From Nymphaea colorata (lineage: Eukaryota > Streptophyta > Magnoliopsida > Nymphaeales > Nymphaeaceae), in contig NC_045141.1 in NCBI RefSeq assembly GCF_008831285.2, forward strand, positions 20,332,848 through 20,396,847: a stretch of DNA of 64,000 nt. The letters run 5' to 3'. A model generated the notes under the pieces. It ran no database searches. It was not told the DNA's origin and saw nothing but the letters and a program-made list of their open reading frames with translations. Position numbers and translations under genes: made by a program. Positions within the stretch are counted from its first letter, which is position 1. Each line of letters begins with the position of its first letter. Below are positions 3,113-43,127 of this stretch, piece by piece.

Positions 3113-4639
3113 AGAAGGGCCAAGGGGTGCAAGAGTTGCATAAAAGTTGTACGGGAGAAGAGTGATGTTGTTTTCCATGGAGCTGTGGTGCATGCACCAT
3201 AACACCGAGGAAAAAGGTGCTTTTGGTTTCAGAGGGTCCTCCTACTGTCTCCTGCCCACTGCTGCTGCTGCATGGATGGATCCATCGATGGATGGTTGTG
3301 GGGATATCTTTCGGTCGCTGCTTGCAGATGTAGCATCAACAAGATTCACATATATCTGAGGTGGCCCACTCCGCCATTTCTCTCCTTCTGCACATGCAAT
3401 TACGTGCAGATTGTACGTGTGGGGACATGGAAAGAGTGACAGATATGAGAATCTTGATGATGCTGCATCGGCAATTAGCGACTAATTCTCGTTTTGATAC
3501 GCGTTCGTTCTCTGTAGACGGATGGAAGCCCGCCTGAGGGGAAGAAGACAGGAAAATCTAAGAAGAATGGTTGCGGTTGTAGACTATTGAAAGGGTATTG
3601 TGAATCTATTATTGCGGTTCATTGTCACCCTGAACTTTTCCGTCATTTATATCCTTCCAGCAAGATCATATAAGGTTTGTGAAATATGCAGCTACTGGTC
3701 AATTTGCGAGGAGGAAGATTGTTTTCTCTAGCACCCTCTTCTTTTTTCGTAGAGAGAGTATATTGGATCCGTAGTTTCTTATTTTACTTCCTATTTTAGA
3801 TGAATGCATCGTTCGGTTTAAGAGAAAGAAGAAAAAATTCTGGCTGTTGATTTGAGCTGTTGCAGCACTTACAGGATCTATTTTATTCGCCGTGGCCGCT
3901 GCACATCTGTAAGTGTTCCTTTTGTGTTCGCTCTCACGATCTAATGATCCGCGAATAGCTAAGTTATTTATCCATGAGATCTATCCTCTTGGCAGACAGA
4001 AGATGTACCATCTCTGCGATCTTTCGTTTTATACTTCCTAATTTCCTTAAGTTTCTGTTGCTAAAACTTCCAGAGGTCTGTTCTCCCTACCAAAGCAAAT
4101 TAAAGAAGCAAAAAGAAGAAAAAATCCGCACATCGGATATCATCTTAGCAGACTAGTTGCTGATCTTAAAGTGATATGCTCAAGAAGAAATACAGGAAAT
4201 TCAAATGGCCGAAATATTATATTCCACTCCCAAAGGAGTACTTTTGAAATGCTAAAGCAAATGATTTGACCTTTTTTGAGTGCTACTATTCTCGTTTGAC
4301 GTGATCCGTGAACCAGGTTGCTTTTCTGAATGCAAGTTGACGTTTGTATTATTTTTTATTAGATTTGATTAGTGGTTGATGAACAATAAATTGAATTGAC
4401 ATGAGCTTCTTAATTTCTTAATGCCGTCCTATACTATGTAGAGTAGTGAATAAGTGGAAGCTGTTTAAGATTGAATTAGTGGAAGGAGATATGATAAATT
4501 GATCTGATTCTCTAATTAAAATATTGGTAAAGCTTTCCCCTGTTCTAGCATCAGTGGATATCTTTTTCAAAATTTAAAAATCTAGGATCACAACAAAAGG
4601 GGTACATGCCTTTCATAAAGGTACAATATTCCTTCATTT

Positions 4640-6660
4640 GAAGTTTTTCAATGGCATTAGCCATTATGGCATTTATATTCGCTTTTCTAGGTTGGTGTTC
4701 TAACATTCACGCATTTTTCAAGCTCTTCTATGCCCATGTTTTAAAAAATGTGCATTCTTGGTCCTTTCAGCTTCTATACTCTACCTTCTCAAGCTCATGC
4801 CCTGCAAATTCCCACAAAAATTTTTTCAGCTATCAATTCTATGTCCAGCCTCAAGGCGCCGGTTCAAACGGATTTCTTGTCGACTTCTTTAAATGGCATT
4901 GGGATATAGTTAATGAGGACACATGTAATATTTTTAGAGAATTTCATCGAAGCACATAGCTTCCTCTGGACATGTACAAGTGCTTAATCACACTCATTCT
5001 CAAGCATAGATAAGATAACCATACATCAAACTATTGTCCAATCTTTATAATGGGGAATTTAAGAAGGATTACTGCTAAGGTAATTGAGACAAGAACTAGG
5101 TCACTCCTCGAATTAATTTTGCATGATCTGTTTACACTTATACTGGAAAGAGATATTCAACATGCTCTTATTATGGCACCCATTTTTCATGTTTAAGGTG
5201 GACTTAAGAAAGGCATTTGACTATATATCATAGTCCTATTTGCTGCAATTGTTGAAGTATATGAATTTTGGTAAACAATATATGTCTTGGATCAAAGAGT
5301 TGCTTACCAAATCAAAGACATCTATCGTTATCAATGGACGCTTAAGACCCTCCTTCATACCACAACGAGGAGTTTGGCAAGGTTGCCCCTTTATCCCTGC
5401 CTTGTTCAACAAAACAATGGAAGGTTTAGTAGTTTTAATTAAAAGGGCAGCCGCAAGTGAGTTGCCTAACCCTATCAATGTGGATGACCTCTCATCTAAT
5501 ATTATTCAGTATAAAGATGACTTGATGTTTTTTGGGGAAGCAACTTTTCAACAGATAATGGTAACATTGCTCATTATTTGTATCTTCTCTATGACATCTT
5601 ATCTTGACATTAATGAAGACAAATTGTCTATTACCTTGTTAAATGTTGATGCATACATTAAGTTTGAATCTTTGATGCATCTCTTTCAATGCAAATGATC
5701 GATCTTTATATTGAATACTTGGGGCTTTCCCTTCAACTACAAGCAATCAAAACACCTTCTTGGTTGCCAATCATTGATAATATTAACAATAGATTGGCTT
5801 CTTGAAAATCTAGACATCTATCCCAGCTAATAAAGTAACCATGATCAAGTATGTCCTCTCCACTCTGCCTTCTTATTTCTTGTCGGTGTTCTCCCTACCT
5901 GCTAAGGTGGAAAATGGGCTGAATCACATTCTCAAAAAAATTTTGTAATGTGGGCCTAGCCTGAAGAAGAAAAAACATCTTGTAGCTTAGAAATCTATTT
6001 CTCTACCCTTTTCTCGTGGAGGTCTAAGAATTCCACATATCAGAAAAAGAAATATATCTTTCATTTTAAAGTGGTGGACTTTTGTCCAAGACTCCAATTC
6101 AATTTGTGCGATGGCTTTCCGCCACAAATGCAATTTGCATAGTCTCTTATGTGCAGTTCAAAGATAGTTTCCATATAACAATTTTCTTCATGGGAATGAG
6201 ATGGTGAAGGGCGTTTCTCTGTAGCTTGTGCTTACAATTTGTTTTAACCTCTCAGTGTTGATTGGTTCCTTCATAATATCCTTTGAGCTGGGGGTCCTAC
6301 TCGACGATCCAAAACTTTTTGCCTAACTTATTAAGATGGACCACATATAGACTCAAAATAGCCTAATGAGGTCTGGTTTTCACCTTGCTAGCAAATAGCC
6401 ATTAAGTTGTTGTGCCGAAGAAACTACCACTCACTTGTTTTGGTTTTGTTGAGTGTCTCAAGATATTTCATGTGCTTACCTGGTTTATGCTTGAAGTCAA
6501 AACATATCTACGATTCAGGATCTTATTCATGGACCAGTTACTTCTTGGTGGGTCATATGGAACTCCAAGAATGATATTATTTATAAAAATAAGGTTGTCT
6601 CAGTTTGCATTACATAATTCATTTTGTATGATGTTTGGTTAATTACTCATAACTTATAGG
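4640..6660 (+). pseudogene. Fossil LINE (L1-type) ORF2 reverse transcriptase
   Basis: A decayed non-LTR retrotransposon reverse transcriptase on the plus strand. Motifs appear in the right order but in shifting frames. A fingers-like segment (GSNGFLVDFFKWHWD, about 4860-4905) matches the usual PGPDGF..EFF..FW. Next comes KVDLRKAFD near 5195-5225 with its catalytic aspartate, followed by an in-frame stop. Then RGVWQGCPFIPALFN lies near 5367-5412, and YKDDLMFF near 5509-5532 stands in place of YADD. A thumb-like EYLGLSL motif follows near 5714, and remnants of the zinc-knuckle RT tail lie near 6400-6640. The ORF1 and endonuclease parts are not recognised. Stops and frameshifts show it is inactive. 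The 5' and 3' limits are approximate. Confidence 0.8.
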
Positions 6661-13627: not shown

Positions 13628-15650
13628 CTACACACGCGGGGGTGTGGTCTCTATTGGGGTTCTCACGGATGCCACGCGCTTGCCTCTCTCAGGCCTGCTG
13701 TTCTCTGCAAACTTCACGCTTCCATGGTGCAGTCCCTTCTCTTTCTCCGCGCCGGTCCACTCTGATGCATAGAAATGCTCCTCGGTGACGCCCTTCGATT
13801 GCGGCAGGAACATGCTCCCCCACGGAGGGAAGTGCACCAAAGTGGCCGGGAGGGTGCAAGCTATGATCATCACGCCCATGTAGGTGAGCCCATCTGCACC
13901 AGAGTATTTGGCGCTGGTGAAGAAAAGGAACTGAGTTAAAGCAGCACCCACATTTCCCCCGGCACCCGTCATGCCGGAAATTACGCCGAGGGATCTCCGG
14001 GATATGAAAGGAACGATGCCAAACGTCGCCCCTTCTGCCGCTTGTGTACATATGGAGAATAAGATCATGGCCAAGATCGAGAGTGGTAGAGTGTTGGCCT
14101 TTCCTAGCCAAATGCAGAAGAGACCTCCTAGAGTTTGCAGGATCCATAGGTTCCACAGACGGCCGCGCATGCCGAATTTTCGAGCTCCAAAATCAGACGC
14201 AAGTCCACCAACTGAGCGAGCAAATATGTTGGCCAATCCGGAACTAGCAGCAACGATGCCGGCAGTGTGGAGTTTCAGGTGGAACCGATCGTAGAAGTAC
14301 TCGGCGATGACATTGTCTGTGGTAAGCTCGACGCCTAAAGAGTAGCCATACAGAAAGACAAAGACCCATGTCCTGTAATTGGTCACCGCACACCACAAGA
14401 CCTGCAATATTTCCAGTACAGAAGTGAACACTTGTCCACGAGACAGAAATCATAATATAATTTGACCATCTAATTAGTGTCATTATATCTATAGTTCTGA
14501 TTCTCTTTCTCTTTAACTATCATAATCTAGTTTTACAAAAGTACCAAACTTGATTATTTGCCCGAAAAGTACCACACTTGAATATTCAAAAGAAAAATAT
14601 ATTTTGTCTTAAAAGGTTAATTAAACTGTATTATGTAATACATTCTTTCCAACCAGAGAATGAAGAGCAGAGGTGATAAATAGATCCATATACAGCATTA
14701 CATTCCGTTTGGGATTAGAAAAAGCTGTAATCTTACCTTCTTCTTATATCTATGATAAATACCATATGCACTTCTTTGAACTTGAATGGAGAAATAGGTT
14801 TAATTGTGTATGTGTGTGTGTAAATATATAATACCTTAGAGAATTCATCCTTGTGAACATCTCCCTTCTTGTGGAGAGTTCTCAAGTTTCCATCCGGCAG
14901 GTCCTGTCCTTGACAGAGGATAAGGATGCCCATGATGAGAAGCATGAGTCCAGGAACAAAAAAGGCTATCCTCCACGCAGTAAATGGAGTAACACCCATC
15001 TTGTGAATCACCTGATACAAGAGTGGCATGATGAGTTGGGTAGCTCCCCCTCCCATGTTACCCCACCCAGCAGCCGTCCCATTGGCAGTTCCCACGATTT
15101 TGCTGTTGAACATGACGCTCATCCAGTACTGGCACGACACGAAAGTCGCCAGCGAGAATCCAATCACAAACCGGACGGCGACGAACCCGGTGGCGGTGGA
15201 CACCAGGGCCATGCAGAACACCGCCGGCGCCGATAGCAAGAGGAGGAATGCGCACCCATGGCGCGGCCCCAGCATGTCGCAGACGGCCCCCATGACGAGC
15301 CTGGAGAAGATGGTCCCGGACACGGAGGCGACGCCGGCGTGGCCGATGTCGGCCTTGGTGAGGTTCAGGTTGTCGCGGATGATCGGAACGAGGGGAGCGG
15401 CGGCGAAGGTGGAGACGAAGCAGGTGAAAAAGGAGAGCCATGAGAGATGGAAGGTCAGCATGTGTGGCCTGCTGAAGGACAAGAATTTGATCACTTTCGC
15501 CCTGTTCTCGGAGTCCACAGGCAATGCGAACCATGGTGTGGCTTCTGTGGGGACTTCAGGGGAAGCCACAGACAGGGGAAATGCCGACTTTGTGCCATGG
15601 ACTCCGTGCATGGAAGTGCCTGGAGACCCTTCTGTGTTGTTGGCAGCCAT
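13628..15650 (-). CDS. NRT2: High-affinity nitrate transporter NRT2, two exons
   Basis: Plasma-membrane nitrate/proton symporter of the NNP branch of the major facilitator superfamily. It usually works with the partner protein NAR2 (NRT3), which is not in this window. Exon 1 is 14835-15650 (272 codons) and exon 2 is 13628-14401 (257 codons plus stop), joined in phase 0 by a 433-bp GT-AG intron; total 529 aa, the normal family length. The start at 15650 was chosen because [17 protein letters not shown] matches the usual NRT2 N terminus; an upstream in-frame ATG at 15683 is less likely. Visible hallmarks are [18 protein letters not shown], the MFS loop [12 protein letters not shown], the NNP signature [35 protein letters not shown], a second glycine-rich signature [11 protein letters not shown], and the C-terminal [11 protein letters not shown]. 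It appears intact. Exon 1 is GC-rich compared with its surroundings. Confidence 0.96.
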
Positions 15651-15738
15651 GGAAGCAACTTCAGAGGTTGCGCGCAACAGCAAATGAAAGAGAAAAGGAA
15701 GAATGGAGATGTTGTGACCCCCAGGCTTTCGTTTGGGG

Positions 15739-29276: not shown

Positions 29277-31826
29277 TTACTGCTGCTGAGGTGAAATGCA
29301 TCCCCTTTCCACAAATTGCACCATAAGCCTCTCTGCTTCACTTGAATTTCCCACTAGAATCAATCTCTCCTTCACTTTTCTACATATTTTTACATCAGGA
29401 ATTAGGTTTCTCTTAAACATTCGGCAAGCAACTTTGTAAGACCATAGTGGGAGCCCTTCATCCAAGAATCTCTTGATTAGCACATGACATGTATCAGCAT
29501 CTAATTTGGAGGCTGTCCTTAAAACTTTATCCAGATGCGTATAAGCCTCCTCAAGTTTTCCAAATTTACAAAGCTTCTCGATTACCTGGTTATAAGCAGT
29601 CCTAAAATGATGCTTCTGCATCATCTTTTCCAACAAGCCCAATAGTTCTTCAACCTTTCCCTTCTCACAATATCTATGAATTACTGTTCTGTAAGTTACA
29701 GCAGAAGGAATCAACCCCTTTTTAAGCATCTGGTTTATTAGTCGAGTTGTTTTGGCTAGCATGCCCTTCCGTCCGAGAGCATCAATCAACGTAGTATATG
29801 TCACCACATCAGGATGCCTATTGTTCAGATACATGTCATCAAATAATGAAAGTGCAGATTCAGTATCATCTTCCTTGCAGAACCCATGAATGAGAGTTGT
29901 GAAGTTCACCACATTAATCTTACATCCCTTTCTCAAGCATTCCTCCATGAATTCTTTTGCATTAGCTGATTTCCCATCTCTACACATATCATAAACCAGT
30001 AAATTGATTTCAACAGCAGTAGGAAAAAACTGTTTCTCTATCATCTTCATAACCAATTCACAAGCCTCAGCAAATTTCCCCTCTCTTCGAAGACCATGAA
30101 TGACAGCACCATATGTGATAGCATTTGGAGTCCACCACCTCTCTTCACTTGCATCAAGCATTACCCTTGCCTCAGTGGACCTCCCCAGCTTACAAAGCCC
30201 ATTAAGCAAAGCAGTATATGACACAGTATTTGGCTTGCATCCATTTTTATGCATCTCCTTGATTATCTTCTTTGCATGGTCTATCTTTCCTACCCTACAG
30301 TACCCATCCACAACAGCACTATAAGTTACGACATCAGGAATGCAACCATCCATGAACATCCTATTAACAACCTCTTTGGCTTCATCCATTTTCCCTTCAC
30401 GGCAGAAAGCATGAACTATTGCACTATATGCGACTTTATCAACTGGAAAGCCCTTACTCTTTGATTCCTGCAGGAATTCAAATCCTTCTTTTGCATGTCC
30501 ATTCTTTGAGAGAACATGTACCAGTGTGGAATATGTAACCTGGTCAGGAATTAAGCTATTCTCTGTCCACATTTTCTCCAACAAGCCTCTTACTTCTCCA
30601 ATCCTTTTATACTTACACAGGAATACCATTATAGTATGGTAGCTAATCTTATCAGGTGAACACCCATTTGCTTGCATTTCTTCAAATAAATCTATTGCAT
30701 CATCAACTCTGTGACGAATACAAAGGCCCTTTATCAAAATATTGTAGCTAACAACGTCAGGAGGTACACCTATCCTCTGCATTCTGTCCAAGAACCGCAT
30801 TGCCTTCTCTAATCGGTTGGCCATGACAAGGATGTGGAACACGGTGTTGCAGATGAACAAGTTTGGTTCACGCCCTGCCCTCTGCATCCAGTTCAGTGTT
30901 CGCAATGCACCTCTTAACTTGTTTGCACGGCTACAAGAGATCATCACGTTTGCAAAATCCTCTGACCTTTGATCAATTCCCCGGCGCTTCATCAATCGAA
31001 GGATCCGACGAGAATCTTGGCAAAGCTTGGTCTTGCTGAGGACCTCAAGCATTGTGTGGTAAACTTTACCCCCATGCCGATAGCGCCATTGTCGATCGGC
31101 CCAATAGAAGAAACTGAGGGCAACATTTTCATTTCTCTGAGCACGGAGAACAGCACAAACTTGTTCTTGTGTCAAGCTTCTGAGCAGGTTCCTCAACTTC
31201 CCTTCCAAGTCAGTATTCCATGAGAAGCGTTGCCCAATTAGTCTACAGATTTCTCTTACTAAAGGGTGCTTAGCTGTATTCTCATCTTCTTCAAATTTCC
31301 GAATTTGCTCCTTGTGTTTAATATTCTCAGAAAATACCAAGTCTCCACATTCAAGGTTTGATTCTGCCTGTAATTCCCTATTTTTGCACTCGCTGTCAAA
31401 CTCTGCAACAATTTGTCCCTCTTGGTCTTCATCATCACATTCTTCTTCTTCTTCTTCTTCTTCTTCTTCTTCTTCTTCTTCTTCTTCTTCTGTTTGATCA
31501 TGTTGTTGATTCTCTCCATCCTTCTCTACAGAACCCAAAATTCTGAATCCCAAATGCCCTGTCTCTTCAACCGCTGCTCTTTTACTGCCATACTCAAAAA
31601 TGTTTAGAACGTCAAAGCCTTCCATGTTTTCTTTGTGTCTCCTAGACTTTACAGACAGTTTCTTCACAAACTGAAACTTTTCATCATCACCATCATTGCA
31701 GTGTTCCGTATCAGCATGGGGGTTGCAAGAATTGAAGGTTGCAGAGTCAAAATTACAGAATAATCTAGAAACTAGAAAACTACATGGGCAGCCATGCAGC
31801 CTCTGAGGAGTTGCTTTCAGCAGCAT
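29277..31826 (-). CDS. P-class pentatricopeptide repeat protein
   Basis: An intact, intronless 849-aa PPR protein. Such proteins bind organelle RNA and act in its processing, stability or translation in mitochondria or plastids. The start at 31826 (MLLKATPQRLHGC) gives a basic N terminus with no acidic residues in the first 25, consistent with organelle targeting. Residues 112-129 are an uninterrupted glutamate run followed by more acidic residues. A conserved non-PPR segment follows (LVREICRLIGQRFSW, ALSFFYWADRQWRY). About 15 tandem 35-residue repeats occupy roughly residues 250-830, for example VVSYNILIKGLCIRHRVDDA, VTYSAVVDGYCRVGKIDHA and VTYTTLIDALGRKGMLAKT. No E, DYW or SMR domain is present, so it is a pure P-class member rather than an editing factor. 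I recognise the family but not the orthologue name. Confidence 0.95.
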   Translation of the reverse strand: MLLKATPQRLHGCPCSFLVSRLFCNFDSATFNSCNPHADTEHCNDGDDEKFQFVKKLSVKSRRHKENMEGFDVLNIFEYGSKRAAVEETGHLGFRILGSVEKDGENQQHDQTEEEEEEEEEEEEEEEEECDDEDQEGQIVAEFDSECKNRELQAESNLECGDLVFSENIKHKEQIRKFEEDENTAKHPLVREICRLIGQRFSWNTDLEGKLRNLLRSLTQEQVCAVLRAQRNENVALSFFYWADRQWRYRHGGKVYHTMLEVLSKTKLCQDSRRILRLMKRRGIDQRSEDFANVMISCSRANKLRGALRTLNWMQRAGREPNLFICNTVFHILVMANRLEKAMRFLDRMQRIGVPPDVVSYNILIKGLCIRHRVDDAIDLFEEMQANGCSPDKISYHTIMVFLCKYKRIGEVRGLLEKMWTENSLIPDQVTYSTLVHVLSKNGHAKEGFEFLQESKSKGFPVDKVAYSAIVHAFCREGKMDEAKEVVNRMFMDGCIPDVVTYSAVVDGYCRVGKIDHAKKIIKEMHKNGCKPNTVSYTALLNGLCKLGRSTEARVMLDASEERWWTPNAITYGAVIHGLRREGKFAEACELVMKMIEKQFFPTAVEINLLVYDMCRDGKSANAKEFMEECLRKGCKINVVNFTTLIHGFCKEDDTESALSLFDDMYLNNRHPDVVTYTTLIDALGRKGMLAKTTRLINQMLKKGLIPSAVTYRTVIHRYCEKGKVEELLGLLEKMMQKHHFRTAYNQVIEKLCKFGKLEEAYTHLDKVLRTASKLDADTCHVLIKRFLDEGLPLWSYKVACRMFKRNLIPDVKICRKVKERLILVGNSSEAERLMVQFVERGCISPQQQ
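31440..31491 (-). repeat. (GAA)n microsatellite coding a poly-glutamate run
   Basis: About 17 GAA codons in a row, inside the PPR coding sequence between the targeting region and the first repeats. Being a trinucleotide tract it keeps frame when it changes length. Confidence 0.95.
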
Positions 31827-35099: not shown

Positions 35100-38000
35100 T
35101 CAACCTAGGCTTTCAATAATTTTAGATACAGCAGAATATGTGCCTGAAATAGAGGAAGCAATCCCTACTGTGATAATGAAGGAGCATAAAGAACCCTGCA
35201 AGAGCGACGAATATATTCAAATCGATTGAGTAATTAAAAAAGAAAGGAAATATTACGGAAGGTGCATAAACAACCAGTACACATGATCGAACACAATGAG
35301 CTATAGCCAACCACCAGAATACACAAAGACACTTCAATGTGCTTTCCATATAGAAAATAAAATTTGTCAATCTGGGTTATGAGCCAAATCTTGACAGCTT
35401 TGACCAGCAATTTCATTTAGGTAACTGCATGACATGTCGGATGTGCATCAATCTGGCTCTGATTTCAAACACATTTATATTTTTAATGGTCCTCATCTAG
35501 TTTAGGTTGCCCTCCTTTTTCATTCCAACAAAAATTCAGGGAGATGATACAGAAATTCTAGTGGCAGCATATGCATCTCCAGAAAACTGCATTTCGCCTA
35601 AACTACTTCTGAAGAATTTGTTATTTTTATCCAGAAGTATAAATGAGTTATATATATATATATACCAATGATCTCAATTAGGACCCAAAAAAAAACATTG
35701 GAAAAGCTTCACCGGCCAGCCATACAAAAGATCAAATACCTGTACAAATGTGATCTTTCCCCGAAGGATGCTGAGGAAGCAAGCACAAGGAAGAATCAAG
35801 GTCTGTCAAAGTTGAATGCACATTTAGTTTCTGTAAGATAAGTAATGGACAAATAAAATAGTGAAAAGCAATGTCACATACAACAAGCATTGTTAGGAGG
35901 GACCCAATCAGTGCCATCACAAGACCTGTTTATAAGATAAATAAAACGTCAGAGCTATCAACTATAGCTTCCATTGGCAACCAAAATTTTAATTGCAAGA
36001 TGACAGCGGTATTGAAAAGGATTCTCTCATAGAATGACAAAAAATATCAATAAAGAACTATCCAACTGCTATTTGTGAAAGAAAAAATAAAAAACGCTGA
36101 ATGCTGATAATTTGAAAAATTCTTCAGTGTACAAACACAGCTATACTGGCACCTTCAAAGTGCTGACTGTCTCTGGAAAATATAGAGTATTATCTTTGCA
36201 AACAGCTATTCGGTTCAGGAATGTACATGATAATGCTCTGAAATAGTCCCACCATATTCACACAGATTTTTTTCACAAAGAACAGGGGGAAATGGTCCAT
36301 GTTATTCCCAAAAATGAGACAATAGGAAGCAAACTTTCTGTCACTATATGCAAGCACAAGAGCTAGTAACAGAAGAGTATATTCTAATGTGGTAACAAGT
36401 TTCTCTAAAGCAGATTAGGAAATCAAACTCACCAAAAAATGGAACACTCAAAGCCACAACCAAGGTGGAGATGACAAGCACTGTTCTGATGACGATTGCA
36501 TAGATGTGAGACTTGAGGTGGGTTGAGGGTATCAACTCTTCTAAACTTAGAGCCACTGGAGACAATGTCAATGCAAATGTACTTCTTGTTAAGGAATGCA
36601 ACCATCAATAAGTGGACAGGTCCAGTAAATTTGAAAGGATGAACTTGATGTATGATACAGTGATGCCAAAGTTGTCAAGAACTATGGCAAAACTAATAGC
36701 AATCATGAATTATGCACAAGAGTTGTGGAATCTATGCAATTCTTGCCCACATCCATGCAAGGATGTGAAAGGCCAGGAGCCCAATCCAAGGTGTACCCAG
36801 AAAAACGAAGTTATATAGGAGCTGAGAAGGAAGAATAAGGTCTTCTTCCTTTTCCACACTCAGCCTAATCTTTGGAATAATATGATTTATCATTTGCCCC
36901 CTCTAATACCCCTTCCAATAGCCACTAGGGGAACAACAATATATCAGCTCTGAGTGTATTTCATGAATTACCAGATAGTAACAGAGTAAGACTATTTCTA
37001 TTGTAGAGAATTACTAAAAGATGAGATGCAATAAGAGAAATCAGTATGTTGTGTGGTAAATATATAAATGTACATATAAAATACTTACATAAATATATAC
37101 ATTCATGCATGGATTCAGACACAGACACACACAGAGAGAAGAAGAAGAAGAAGAAGAAGAAGAAGAAGAAGAAACTAAAATCATTTCTGCATGCACATGC
37201 AGATTTTGGAAAAACAAACTCCATAGTAAATGCTTGGCAAGTCAAAGGGAAATGGCCAAAAAAATGGAAAGAGATAACAAGTTGCAGAAGTGTAATAGTT
37301 AATGAAATATGAATTATATTTTATGAGAAAAGAATAATAAAGGATCGATAGATAGAGAAACATCAATCATCAAATTAAAAGGAACGTAAAAGAAGTCAAT
37401 GAGGCCAGAGATGAACTTCATAAGAGGTTGACGAAGGAATGACACAGAGACTGTCACATGGATACAGATGAATGAGGCAATAACTGGATTTGCTTGGCAG
37501 AATGCAGTCATTTTTCAAAATCAGGATATGGGAACACAACACAATTCTCAATGCAAGCTATAAAATATGATTATTATCAAGTTATTATGATAAAAAATAA
37601 TTAAAAACGAGCTCAAAAGTTAATATAATGTAGTTCAGGACAAATTACAGGAAAAGCCAGGTGAACACAGAATATGAAATCAAGTCTATGGAGACCATCG
37701 AAGAATAGATAAAGCCAAATAACACATTTGACGACAGAAGACATTGGCTTGTCTGTATCAACCAAGTATCTTAGCATGTAGGAGAAATGGAGAATCATGT
37801 CATGTCGGGAGGGGTTACACATGCTAACTCTCAAGCGGAATTCAAAATTGGAAAGCTTTCTTAAATTAAGCATTATGTTATCCAGAATAAACCATATTCT
37901 ACATACACATAAAATGTCTTCAGCAAGTATTAAGCTTAAAACAAAAGATCAAGATAAGTTTGTGGATATTTTGTAAATGGGTTCACCACCTGCAAAAGAA

Positions 38001-41000
38001 CCACAATTAAGTCATCCACTTGCTGAAAAGAATAAATTGTTCCAAGACAATGTTTGCAGAAGCAAGAAAAGGTACTACATGTTCCAGCTGCATACCGTTG
38101 TCCAAACTGCAATCTTTGAGGCAACAAAATTTTGGGGCATGTTCAGTGTGAACTGTGAGGCTGTTGCATCTCCAGACATGGTGTAACCCATGAAAGCAAC
38201 TCCAGCATATAAAATTGTACAAATTACAAAGCTGAAATTACAAAATAAATCTTTTAATGTCTCTTTAATGTCTCAGAAAATAGAGAATGCTCAATAACAG
38301 AAGAGATACCAGATAATGGTTACTGAGGTGGTCAAGAAAGACAAAAAAAAAAAGACACCTTGTCAGAAGAACCGTTGGGTACTGGCTGGGTTTCTTCATT
38401 GAAGAATAAATATTTGGGAAGACAGCATGCCCCGAATAGCAGTATCCAAAAAGTCCAATTGCAACAGGGAAGTTGGTCAGGGAGAGAGCAGTCCCTTTAT
38501 GTTTGAAACCAGCTTGATCGACCAAACCAACCCAAAATAAACAAAGTGCAACCAGTATTGATGCAATAACTCCTCCAGCTGAATATTAGCAAAATCAGAC
38601 AAAAGATTTTGCAAACCAATAGCATGAATGTGTTTGCCAAACAAACTCCCATTGCATTTAATATGTAGTCAGTCCATTCTTAATTAAGTGGAAATCACAG
38701 AAACAAATATCATATTAAGACAGCAAAAAACCAGAGGCACAGCAGGTATCATTTTTCTTTGTGAATTCATGTCCTGATCAACATTATACTACAACCAGAG
38801 AAAAGATAATGCTTGGTAGACAGTAAAGGTACAGAATTGGTTTCCCTTTATTTAAGCAGTGGAGCCCATCTTGCTGGACAAAACAGTGTTTTCATCAGCT
38901 GGCAATGGTGGAGCCACATATGAGCCAGAGGGGCCACAGATATATGACAATGGCTATTTTTCTTCCATTCAGCTAAAATGGTTACATATCTATACACACC
39001 ACACCCCCCCCCCTCCCCCAACCCCCAACCACAAAAAAAAAAAAACCTGTAAATTTATAGTATTACCACTAAGTGACTGGGTTAATGCAATGCATTCCAA
39101 GCCAAAAACAAGTCCTGATAGCCCAAACAAACAAACTCTTCATGACATGAGTTCTTAATGTGTAAACTTAAAGTCGTTGGAAAGAGTAATGAGGGAAAGA
39201 AAATTCTAACAGATACATATGTCTATGTTATGTTGGACTGACGAGGTACAGCACCACACACTGAGTATTCTTCATCAATGCTCTCAGAATAGGCCTGAAT
39301 GAATCGAATCAGTTGAATCGGTGGGAACTGATTCAATTCAGTGGGCAATTTAAGGGTGTCATCTGTCAGCTTTTGACACATTTTAAATATTTTAAGATTT
39401 TTGTACGGTTAATTTTGATATATTTTCTTTGTTTGTTTTGTTCAAAAATTTGTAACATTTTTAGCTGATTCACAACTGAATCAGCTGAATCAGTGAATCA
39501 GTTGATTAACAAAATCAGCGGACCTGCCAATTGATCCAGTAACTAATTTTTGCAATACTGCTCCTCATTGTTACCCCACTATTCTAGACCATCAATAGAA
39601 AGTCTTTTCAGGTATGTCTCATGGGTGTGAGTATGGGCATGGACACAAGTGAGCCTGCGGACATAGGTGTGGACAATTCCAAAAAAAAATGAGTACAGAC
39701 ACAGCTATATTATGTGTGTGTGTGTGTGTGTGGATACAGAAGTATCCACATCTGTGTCCAGCCATATTGACACAAATCTGGCACCCATTTTGTCATGTCC
39801 GTGTGACAAAGATTTTTCAGTCAGTCAATGCTGGTGTGGTGTTTCAAGAATATGTTCACACGCTAAGGGGAAAAATTCGAAACATTCACGAGATGCAAGT
39901 AACTCATTTTTTGCCAAAAATAAAAGTTTGAAATGCAAGGGTGGTATATGCTATAAAAGGAACCCAGAAAGTGGAGGGACTTGTGAAAAGTTTGCAAGGA
40001 TGGGTGCAGCACTTTTGGACGATGGACAAGAATCAAGCATACTTTTGAAACAAGCACGGATAAACACATGCATAATTTGGCCTGTCATCAAAGTGATATA
40101 AGCCTTTCTTCAATAAAAAATGACATCAAGCAAAAATTATACCTGAGATGTAGCTCAGTAAGCTTAGATCGCGAAGCCAAACAGTGGGAAGGACAGCAAG
40201 GCAGGTCATGATAGCGAACAGGTGGTGGGGATCAAGTTCAAAGCCACCTAGACTTAGATGTGCATTGGGAAAGAGTGAAGTCAAGTTATCACTCTCAAGA
40301 ATTATATATTCAACACAACAAGCCTGTTTCAACAAAGCCAACAAAACCAGCATTAAAAGGCAGCGATACAGTGGGAACAAAGAACTAGGTGGCATCATAT
40401 TGGCATGAACAAATCCTTGGCATGTAGACGCAGTTCAGATCATGTGAGAAAATTCCCTCACTGAACTTACATCACACAAACATTTGACTCATGAATGAAA
40501 GTGTGTGAGATCAGATCACAAGCAGGATATCAGAATCAAGAGAAAAGAAAAAGGTATAATTTGAGTGCCGAACAATTTGAATCCTCTTTCTTTACTTTTC
40601 ATGATATGGTAATTCAATATTTCAACCTAATTTGCAAACAGAAGAACTCAGATATGTAAAAATAACTTTAGAAGTCCATAAGACAAGAAATGGGTAGGCA
40701 TATGAAACTGTGAAGAGAGAGTCACACTTACGTACAATTCCGTGTATAAAATTATCTGCATAAAAAAAAAGAGAGAGAGAATCTATTAGCTTACATATCA
40801 ATGACAAGTTGCACAAAACAAAAGTTTGTAGGAAACAAGTAACATATTTTGACATACTGCTTATGTTAGAGAATGCCACAACACCGAAAAAAAACTTGAA
40901 AAAAGAAGAATTAGATGTCCCCATTGCAATGGATGCACTAGCACTAGCAGTACGGCATAAAAGATTCTGTAACATTACAAAATGAGCTGCAGTAGGTCAT

Positions 41001-43127
41001 GCGGGCAAAAATAGCACGTATGACATGGAAGGTGAGATGAATGCTCAGCATTCATGAAAGGAAGACTAACAGTTTGCTTCGAATTTTAGAGTTAAATAAG
41101 AACCAAAAGATTTAAGAGACTTTGAATCTCACCTTTGAACTACTGTCCTACCTTCTGGTACGTATAATCTACAAAAGCAGCATTCCTAGAAAGGAAGAAG
41201 CTAAGCACCAAGGAATCACATTCTTATTTTTGAATACCATATATTAGAGCAATGTACATGGTGAATTTTTTTGGTACAAAATGGTCTTGTACAAGTATTA
41301 GGTCCACTAGGTAAAGACCAACATGAGATGATTTTCTGAAGTAGAATGAGCAAACAGCATGTGTATATGCATGTTCCGTGTACTAGACGGAGGGGAGAGA
41401 CAGCGACAGTATGAAAAAGGTTCCATGACTTGACTTGATGTTTAGCAACTCTAAACTAGTGTCCTTATGTACCAATTAGTGTCATTGGCATCACTGAGTA
41501 TTTCTGTAGCTGTCCATAAACATGCTTCATCTGCCAACACATATTAGAAGTGTTCAATTGTTTAATAGTGTTCTGCACAGTTGTTTGAAATATTCTGCAT
41601 AATAAAGGAAAATGCAATTTCCCTACCAGCAAGACCAGTTGAAGCTGCTGAGATTAATACGCAATCTTAAAATTTGTACTTTTCATAAGAATAATAAGAA
41701 ACTCACGGATATAGCAAGACGACCAAAGGTGCCAAATGCAGCCTGTCCAATATCAGGGTAAGTTTCGAGCCCAGGTTCACTGTCCAAGCAGTGGCGGAGA
41801 AGGATCCCCGTATAATAAGAAAGAATGCCAAAGGTAAGCAACACTAGGAGTCCAAGCCACCCTGCTTCCTTAACTGCATATGGGGTAGAAAGTATTCCTA
41901 CTCCACAGAGAACATTTATCCCTAAACAAGAATAGTAAAGAAAGGCATGTCAGTTTGTATCAGGAGTAACTATTCACTGGCCATCACAACATCTAAAGAA
42001 TAGGTGCATGCACCTCATGCAATGTTAGTTTCACACATTTTGTTGGCACCTCAACAGGAAATATGCATGTGAGGAAACTCACCTTTCCTCATAATCATTT
42101 TTTTTTCCTCCAAAACTCCATTCACTCGTAATTGGATTTCACAAAAAAATTAAGGGCTTTCTAATATCCATATTTTCAAGGACAGAAAAAACAGAAATTT
42201 TGAAAATCAAGTTTTGGCAGTCAAAACATAGAACACTAATTTGAATAATTTGGTTCTTTCACGAATCAGTATAATCCATCAATGACTTTTGGGATTGGTG
42301 AGTGGCTGTGCTTCAAAAGATTACTGAAAAGAGAACTAAAATGAAAAGTACCATTGATCACTGACTGTCCATAAGAGCAATCACGACCAACTGGCATCTC
42401 ATGTGATGTCCATGCTTCATCTTTTTCATGTATTGCCTTCTTTGATGAAAGCCATGTAGATTCTGCAGGTATGGAAGCATGAGAATCCTGCTCTTGCTGC
42501 TGTTCAGACCTTGTTGGTAGTAATGGCTTAACCAGCGAAACAAGTATCTCAGGAGTATGCATTCTTTGAAGTGAACTTGTTAAATAAGAGCTGCTCAAGC
42601 GGGACAAATTTGGAGTGCCCAGAAACCCGATATTTGGGGAAGCTACAGTAGTGTACATATCAATGGATTGCCTGCATACAAACAATACTACTTTCACTTT
42701 ACCAATAGATTTGAATTTAGACAAAACAGATGACAAGCTAACGGTTTAATCTAACTGCAGAAGAGAGAACATCAGTTTAAGCATGTATCCATGAAGCTTC
42801 AGCCTTTTGTCCAAGCCCGTAAAACAGAAGAACCTTTTGGCCCAAGAACAAGAGCTCTAACACCATGATAGTCGACAGTTACAGCCAAAAATATGACATG
42901 CAAAAGAAAATCACTTCACATAATATCTCAAACTACAAAACATTATACCTGTAACTTTGTGGCCATGATGTGGTATACGAATTCGGCCGTGTACGCTGAG
43001 GGCTGTCAGGTGGAGAAGAATCTGAAGAATCCGATTCATCTTCCTCTCTTCTTTGATCCTTGTCAGCTGCACTTTCATCATCCTCGCTCTCAATGTAAAG
43101 CCTCTGCTCGGAACTCAACTTCTTCAT
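35100..43127 (-). CDS. AVT1: AVT1-type vacuolar amino-acid transporter, 12 exons
   Basis: Member of the amino acid/auxin permease family related to yeast Avt1. Plant relatives sit mostly in the vacuolar membrane and move neutral amino acids using the proton gradient. Exons on the minus strand, 5' to 3': 42949-43127, 42352-42671, 41707-41921, 40732-40755, 40143-40323, 38359-38578, 38096-38231, 37970-37989, 36433-36578, 35882-35925, 35740-35802, 35100-35195. All phases agree and give 547 aa. Residues 1-165 are a hydrophilic, acidic, serine-rich N terminus ([19 protein letters not shown]). The membrane core begins [21 protein letters not shown] and contains [79 protein letters not shown] and [15 protein letters not shown]. 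It ends in a stop at 35100. One intron (36579-37969) is of the AT-AC type. It appears intact. A 5' UTR intron with donor near 44545 is possible. Confidence 0.93.
36579..37969 (-). other. U12-type AT-AC intron in the AVT1-type gene
   Basis: The intron begins ATATCCAC, close to the U12 donor ATATCCTT, and ends AAGTAC. The branch-point word TTCCTTAAC, identical to the U12 consensus, lies at 36588-36596, about 10 bases before the AC. The join restores the conserved VVNPFTK-FALTLSP in frame. No GT-AG pair near either end keeps that sequence. The intron is 1391 bp and includes a (GAA)n tract near 37138-37172. Confidence 0.88.
37138..37172. repeat. (GAA)n microsatellite within the AT-AC intron
   Basis: About 11 GAA/AAG units on the plus strand. 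It is intronic, so the glutamate or lysine runs read from it are not protein. Confidence 0.9.
37970..37989 (-). other. 20-nt micro-exon of the AVT1-type gene
   Basis: Encodes VVNPFTK (split last codon). Its acceptor is TTTTGCAG and its donor is the AT-AC site. The flanking introns therefore probably use two different spliceosomes around a 20-nt exon. Confidence 0.87.
39280..39560. repeat. Intronic repeat with GAATCAGTTGAATC words
   Basis: Two clusters of the word GAATCAGYTGAATC, at about 39305-39345 and 39465-39515, bracket an AT-rich middle inside the intron between exons 5 and 6 of the transporter. This looks like a degenerate dispersed element. Class and exact ends are not determined. Confidence 0.4.
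40732..40755 (-). other. 24-nt micro-exon of the AVT1-type gene
   Basis: Eight codons (IILYTELY) between TATGCAG and GTAAGTGTG. The family has an equivalent ILYMELYA segment here, which supports it as a real exon. Confidence 0.88.

Follow-up and report, generated by a model that had tools for sequence, protein, structure and literature searches.

About 0.06% of plant introns have AT-AC ends (PMC6310983), which agrees with the rarity that an earlier note on this locus had stressed, and such introns are easily lost in annotation. The earlier note placed one of them in an amino acid transporter gene within the 64-kb stretch of Nymphaea colorata DNA analyzed here (the window). This raises the questions of whether the intron truly belongs to the U12-type class, in which AT-AC introns make up 26% in Arabidopsis (PMC7367187), and whether its position is peculiar to this one gene. 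Our reading, to which we give a probability of roughly 0.94 on the basis of sequence comparison, is that intron 8 of this gene is a true U12-type AT-AC intron and that it marks a U12 position common to multi-exon AVT1-like paralogs. The intron is very probably both real and old.

Host gene and signals of intron 8

The model of the host gene has 12 exons (Table 1) and is a prediction read from the genomic sequence. Its protein matches the Pfam family Aa_trans (PF01490) with 226.8 bits over residues 159-538 and model positions 4-408 of 410. This nearly full-length domain is shared with AVT1 proteins, a subfamily of the amino acid/auxin permeases, and it bears out the transporter family named in the earlier note. 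We call the gene AVT1-like, a putative assignment that goes back to this Pfam match. The best PDB match of the 547-residue protein is proton-coupled amino acid transporter 1 (PAT1, E 3.3e-14), with a one-residue gap in the alignment within the stretch encoded by exon 8. The solved structure of the plant auxin transporter AUX1 also matches (E 4.6e-8), and its alignment runs ungapped across the intron 8 junction. Ten of the 11 introns are GT-AG and intron 8 alone is AT-AC. Exon 4 is, like exon 8, very small (24 nt, window 40732-40755, minus strand), with GT-AG introns on either side. No second gene resembling this one was found within the 64-kb window.

Table 1. Window coordinates of the AVT1-like gene and of the features at and around intron 8
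Feature	Position	Strand	Description
AVT1-like amino acid transporter gene, coding part	35100..43127	-	12 exons, 547 aa, ATG to stop
Intron 7	37990..38095	-	106 nt, GT-AG, precedes the 20-nt exon 8
Exon 8	37970..37989	-	20 nt, GTGGTGAACCCATTTACAAA, encodes VVNPFT and two bases of K432
Intron 8, AT-AC, most probably U12-type	36579..37969	-	1391 nt, phase 2, begins ATATCCACAA, ends TTCCTTAACAAGAAGTAC
5' splice site of intron 8, ATATCCACA	37961..37969	-	6/9 to RTATCCTTT
Branch site of intron 8, TTCCTTAAC	36588..36596	-	9/9 to TTCCTTRAY
3' splice site of intron 8, AC	36579..36580	-	
Exon 9	36433..36578	-	finishes K432, then FALTLSP

The boundaries first proposed for intron 8, with an ATATCC start and an AC end, proved exact. 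Joining exon 8 to exon 9 gives VVNPFTK-FALTLSP in frame, in phase 2 and with the codon of K432 split, as expected from the earlier claim that splicing here restores NPFTK-FALTLSP. The branch-point word, which had been put about 10 bases from the end, leaves 9 nt between its C and the end of the intron. Intron 8 shares with known U12-type AT-AC introns the AT and AC ends, the ATATCC core, TTCCTTAAC near the 3' end and a weak pyrimidine tract. It differs from them at positions +7 to +9, which read ACA instead of TTT, and pairing with U11 and U6atac is therefore reduced to about half of normal. The donor equals ATATCCTT over its first six bases only, and because ATATCCTT is reported as nearly invariant at +1 to +8 of U12 donors (Lin et al. 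2010, PMC2831892), the donor departs from consensus at +7 and +8. Over all nine bases of RTATCCTTT, GT-AG introns 5 and 6 reach 7/9 as against the 6/9 of intron 8. A start of [AG]TATCC is absent from the other 10 introns of the gene, whose best match to the branch word is 7/9. The location of intron 8, at 79% of the coding length, is untypical of U12 introns, since these are described as enriched in the 5' parts of genes (PMC2426677). A search for repeats or RNA genes within intron 8 returned only two imperfect inverted repeats, along with two Rfam matches whose scores fall well short of the gathering thresholds.

Chance matches and competing joins

How much these motifs say depends on how the boundary is found. 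In a blind scan of the window, with the chance expectation taken from first-order Markov sequences, the exact branch word followed by an AC end was observed once against 2.5 expected, and donor-acceptor pairs were observed four times (two donors by two AC ends, around one branch word) against 2.7 expected. U12 motifs are therefore at chance level in the window, and taken alone they prove nothing. Once the protein fixes the boundary, ATATCC has a probability of about 2.2e-4 of standing there by chance, and a perfect TTCCTTRAY at 8-21 nt before the intron's end one of about 6.6e-4.

We then compared the proposed join with others that the same stretch allows. With GT-AG, GC-AG and AT-AC sites permitted and the exon 8 acceptor fixed at 37989, there are 89 in-frame, stop-free joins in the stretch searched, the proposed AT-AC join included. 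Seven GT-AG joins and no GC-AG join retain exon 8, and none of them gives exactly 547 aa; the GT-AG join that retains exon 8 and comes closest in length (37943/36545) falls 2 aa short, with a score of 67.4 bits. When the C-terminal part of the protein is scored against Aa_trans, the proposed join ranks at the top of the ten scored with 79.3 bits, and the nine others range from 59.7 to 76.9 bits. The runner-up, at 76.9 bits, is also AT-AC and of the same length, with its acceptor at the end of the branch word; its donor is ATTTAC, and the join thus lacks a U12 donor. Omission of exon 8 with the remaining sites unchanged shifts the frame. No spliced retrocopy of exons 7-12 was found in the genome, where five matches were the gene's own exons and two candidates were scored. 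Relatives sought in viral and prokaryote contigs gave 4 and 21 pattern matches, respectively, and none was confirmed.

The intron position in paralogs

The strong evidence for a U12 position comes from the comparison with paralogs of the same genome. A protein search of one assembly (408-Mb genome) yielded at least 56 matches, and 13 regions were fetched, to which the position comparison is confined; Aa_trans matches of lower similarity lie on C1, C5, C9, C10 and C13. In nine of the 13 regions (L039 and L041-L048), a U12-like intron lies at the same codon and in the same phase as intron 8. Exon 8 is exactly 20 nt long in all nine, with AG in front of it, just as the earlier note had a 20-nt exon upstream of the window intron. 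These nine introns have a GTATCC donor, an AG end and a length of 50-132 nt, and their donors read GTATCCTTT in six and GTATCCC in three; seven were located with a pattern that demands [AG]TATCC, direct reading of the sequence gave the other two, and the whole set of nine was then extracted again. A CTTGAC branch core followed by 9-17 nt is present in eight of the nine, with 9-10 nt after the branch-site C in seven. Position, phase 2, the preceding 20-nt exon and the RTATCC core are therefore common to intron 8 and the paralog introns. In contrast to these GT-AG introns, intron 8 is AT-AC and, at 1391 nt, 10-28 times longer, and it is the only AT-AC copy among the ten read. The comparison supports intron 8 as the AT-AC version of a U12 position that is GT-AG in nine paralogs.

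Three further copies (L049, L050 and L051) lack an intron at this position and read without interruption NPLTKYAL, NPLTKYAL and TPMTKYAL. Because all three read PxTKYA uninterrupted, they support the junction frame of the window gene. TK followed by YA is kept at the junction in 12 of 12 readable paralogs, and NPxTK in nine of these. The remaining region, L040, is fragmentary and exon 8 was not found there; other copies, including L043 and L045, look incomplete. Over exon blocks, identity between the window gene and 11 compared copies ranges from 41 to 54%, so even the nearest of these shares only 54% with it. In a small, unrooted tree of the exon blocks of these 11 copies and the window gene (L040 and L043 had too little sequence to be included), a split with support of 1.000 separates the intron-bearing group from the window gene and the three intron-free copies. 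The branch uniting those three apart from the window gene has support of 0.683. On the simplest reading, the U12 intron would be older than the split between the window gene and the cluster, and the three intron-free copies would either never have had it or have lost it.

The cluster itself is a group of AVT1-like genes at G000:C4:17526500-17670000 (L039-L047), some of them incomplete, with a U12-type GT-AG intron behind a 20-nt exon in eight of its nine fetched regions. One member, L046, keeps GTATCCTTTC; its intron 8 is only 50 nt long and without a CTTRAC branch core, and the copy may therefore be a pseudogene or in the course of losing this intron.

Predicted minor-spliceosome pairing, subtype and surroundings

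Genes for U12 (88.9 bits), U11 (75 bits) and U6atac (five loci) are found in the same genome, all over their gathering scores. Pairing was scored against these snRNAs over assumed pairing segments. Measured in this way, the branch site TTCCTTAAC forms 8 of 8 pairs with U12, the branch A being bulged; three paralog branch sites also reach 8 and five reach 5-7, whereas a branch word is missing from L046. With G-U pairs included, the donor ATATCCACA forms 3 of 6 pairs with U6atac and 3 of 7 with U11, the lowest of the ten copies, as compared with 4-6 and 5-7 pairs for the paralog donors. Judged by this predicted pairing, the 5' splice site of intron 8 is weak beyond +6. The earlier note had missed this weakness, and had likewise missed that the same U12 position is GT-AG in paralogs, so that intron 8 is no isolated oddity. 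Its assignment to the U12-type class stood, carried by the nine GTATCC introns.

Three other accounts of this junction were weighed. Exon 8 might be skipped, with a longer exon 7 (GT-AG donor after 38079 or 38076) joined to exon 9 at an acceptor before 36581, which would keep the frame and a length within one residue while CSWNIT or CSWNMYT replaces VNPFTK. Both such joins are in frame and without stops and score 74.0 and 74.3 bits against Pfam, yet this is 5 bits below the AT-AC join, and they drop the TK that every readable paralog keeps before the junction. They also ignore the exon 7 donor and the exon 8 acceptor, even though AG precedes a 20-nt exon 8 in nine paralogs, and their own acceptor, CTTAACAAGAAG, has no pyrimidine tract; we regard skipping as very improbable. 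We find it just as hard to credit that intron 8 is a U2-type AT-AC intron of the kind reported in a small number of animal genes, where the major spliceosome removes it. AT-AC ends are described in both classes (PMC8280824, PMC3584512) and the donor is poor beyond +6, but this account is opposed by the ATATCC core, by a perfect U12 branch word that stops 9 nt short of the intron's end, and by the U12-type signals that nine paralogs carry at this position. The pyrimidine fraction before the 3' end points the same way, being only 0.50 as against 0.50-0.90 in the ten GT-AG introns of the gene, although one of these, intron 1, is equally low.

A different kind of account, which would be compatible with a U12-type intron, is that this copy is decaying, its weakened donor leaving intron 8 mostly retained or mis-spliced as the gene loses function. 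The 5' splice-site pairing, lowest of the ten copies, would fit, as would fragmentary family members such as L040 elsewhere on the chromosome. The 12 exons nevertheless keep an intact 547-aa frame, all the other introns have GT-AG sites, the Pfam match covers nearly the whole model and the branch site is perfect, and we consider decay unlikely.

For the preferred reading, that of a true U12-type AT-AC intron, removal by the minor spliceosome, with its machinery, efficiency and regulation, is what we infer from these signals. The U11/U12 di-snRNP would recognize the donor and branch site together, with U12 snRNA predicted to pair perfectly at the branch site, and U6atac would then take the place of U11 at ATATCC. 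In mammals, U11-59K is reported to contact U2AF across exons that lie between major and minor introns (PMC8034651). The AT-AC ends should tie removal of intron 8 to the DROL1 (TXNL4B)/CENATAC route. AT-AC introns rely on DROL1 in Arabidopsis (Suzuki 2022, cited in PMC11039992), and in human cells AT-AN introns rely on CENATAC and show relatively high basal retention (PMC8280824). DIM1-family proteins are matched at three places in the genome, and the divergent match on C4 is possibly the DROL1 homologue, a label given by inference. If intron 8 is retained, ten residues follow K432 before a stop at intron bases 32-34, which gives a truncated protein of 442 aa; such a transcript would presumably be a target of nonsense-mediated decay.

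In the usual account of U12 subtypes, AT-AC introns become GT-AG introns. Switching between subtypes has been widely regarded as one-way (Lin et al., PMC2831892). If GT-AG is ancestral at this position, intron 8 would be a switch from GT-AG to AT-AC, against that view. As a tentative and rather doubtful proposal, the ends of one U12 position switched subtype while the class was kept, and the weak donor is offset by the perfect branch site. Intron 8 would in that case be removed slowly and would need DROL1/CENATAC, and retention could act as a switch that limits this transporter and that the GT-AG paralogs escape. The extra interest of intron 8, which we consider modest, comes from the subtype difference among paralogs together with the weak donor. 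One genome here offers a natural comparison, in which one gene carries AT-AC ends at a U12 position where nine relatives carry GT-AG ends. It would make it possible to study the splicing cost of AT-AC ends and of a weak donor, and to see whether the ends by themselves are what DROL1-type factors respond to. No paper naming a U12 intron in AVT1 or another amino acid transporter was found among the matches listed; the Arabidopsis survey of Zhu and Brendel lay outside this scope, and an earlier description is possible.

Intron 8 also shows where annotation restricted to GT-AG would break a conserved protein stretch. The earlier expectation that such annotation would mis-call this gene is plausible, because ab initio prediction is reported to miss splice sites of this kind (PMC5716242).

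Elsewhere in the window, an uninterrupted 849-aa frame at 29277-31826 (minus strand) encodes a pentatricopeptide-repeat protein. A nitrate-transporter-like gene of the NarK/NRT2 type lies at 13628-15683 (minus strand) in at least two pieces, which match TIGR00886 with 184.1 and 117 bits, each under the curated cut-off of 311.7. A match to the MIR172 precursor at 3318-3478 (plus strand) scores 73.4 bits, just above the Rfam gathering score of 70. A piece of a reverse-transcriptase frame at 5240-5698 (plus strand; PF00078, 32.8 bits, cut-off 29.6) is probably the remnant of a retroelement.
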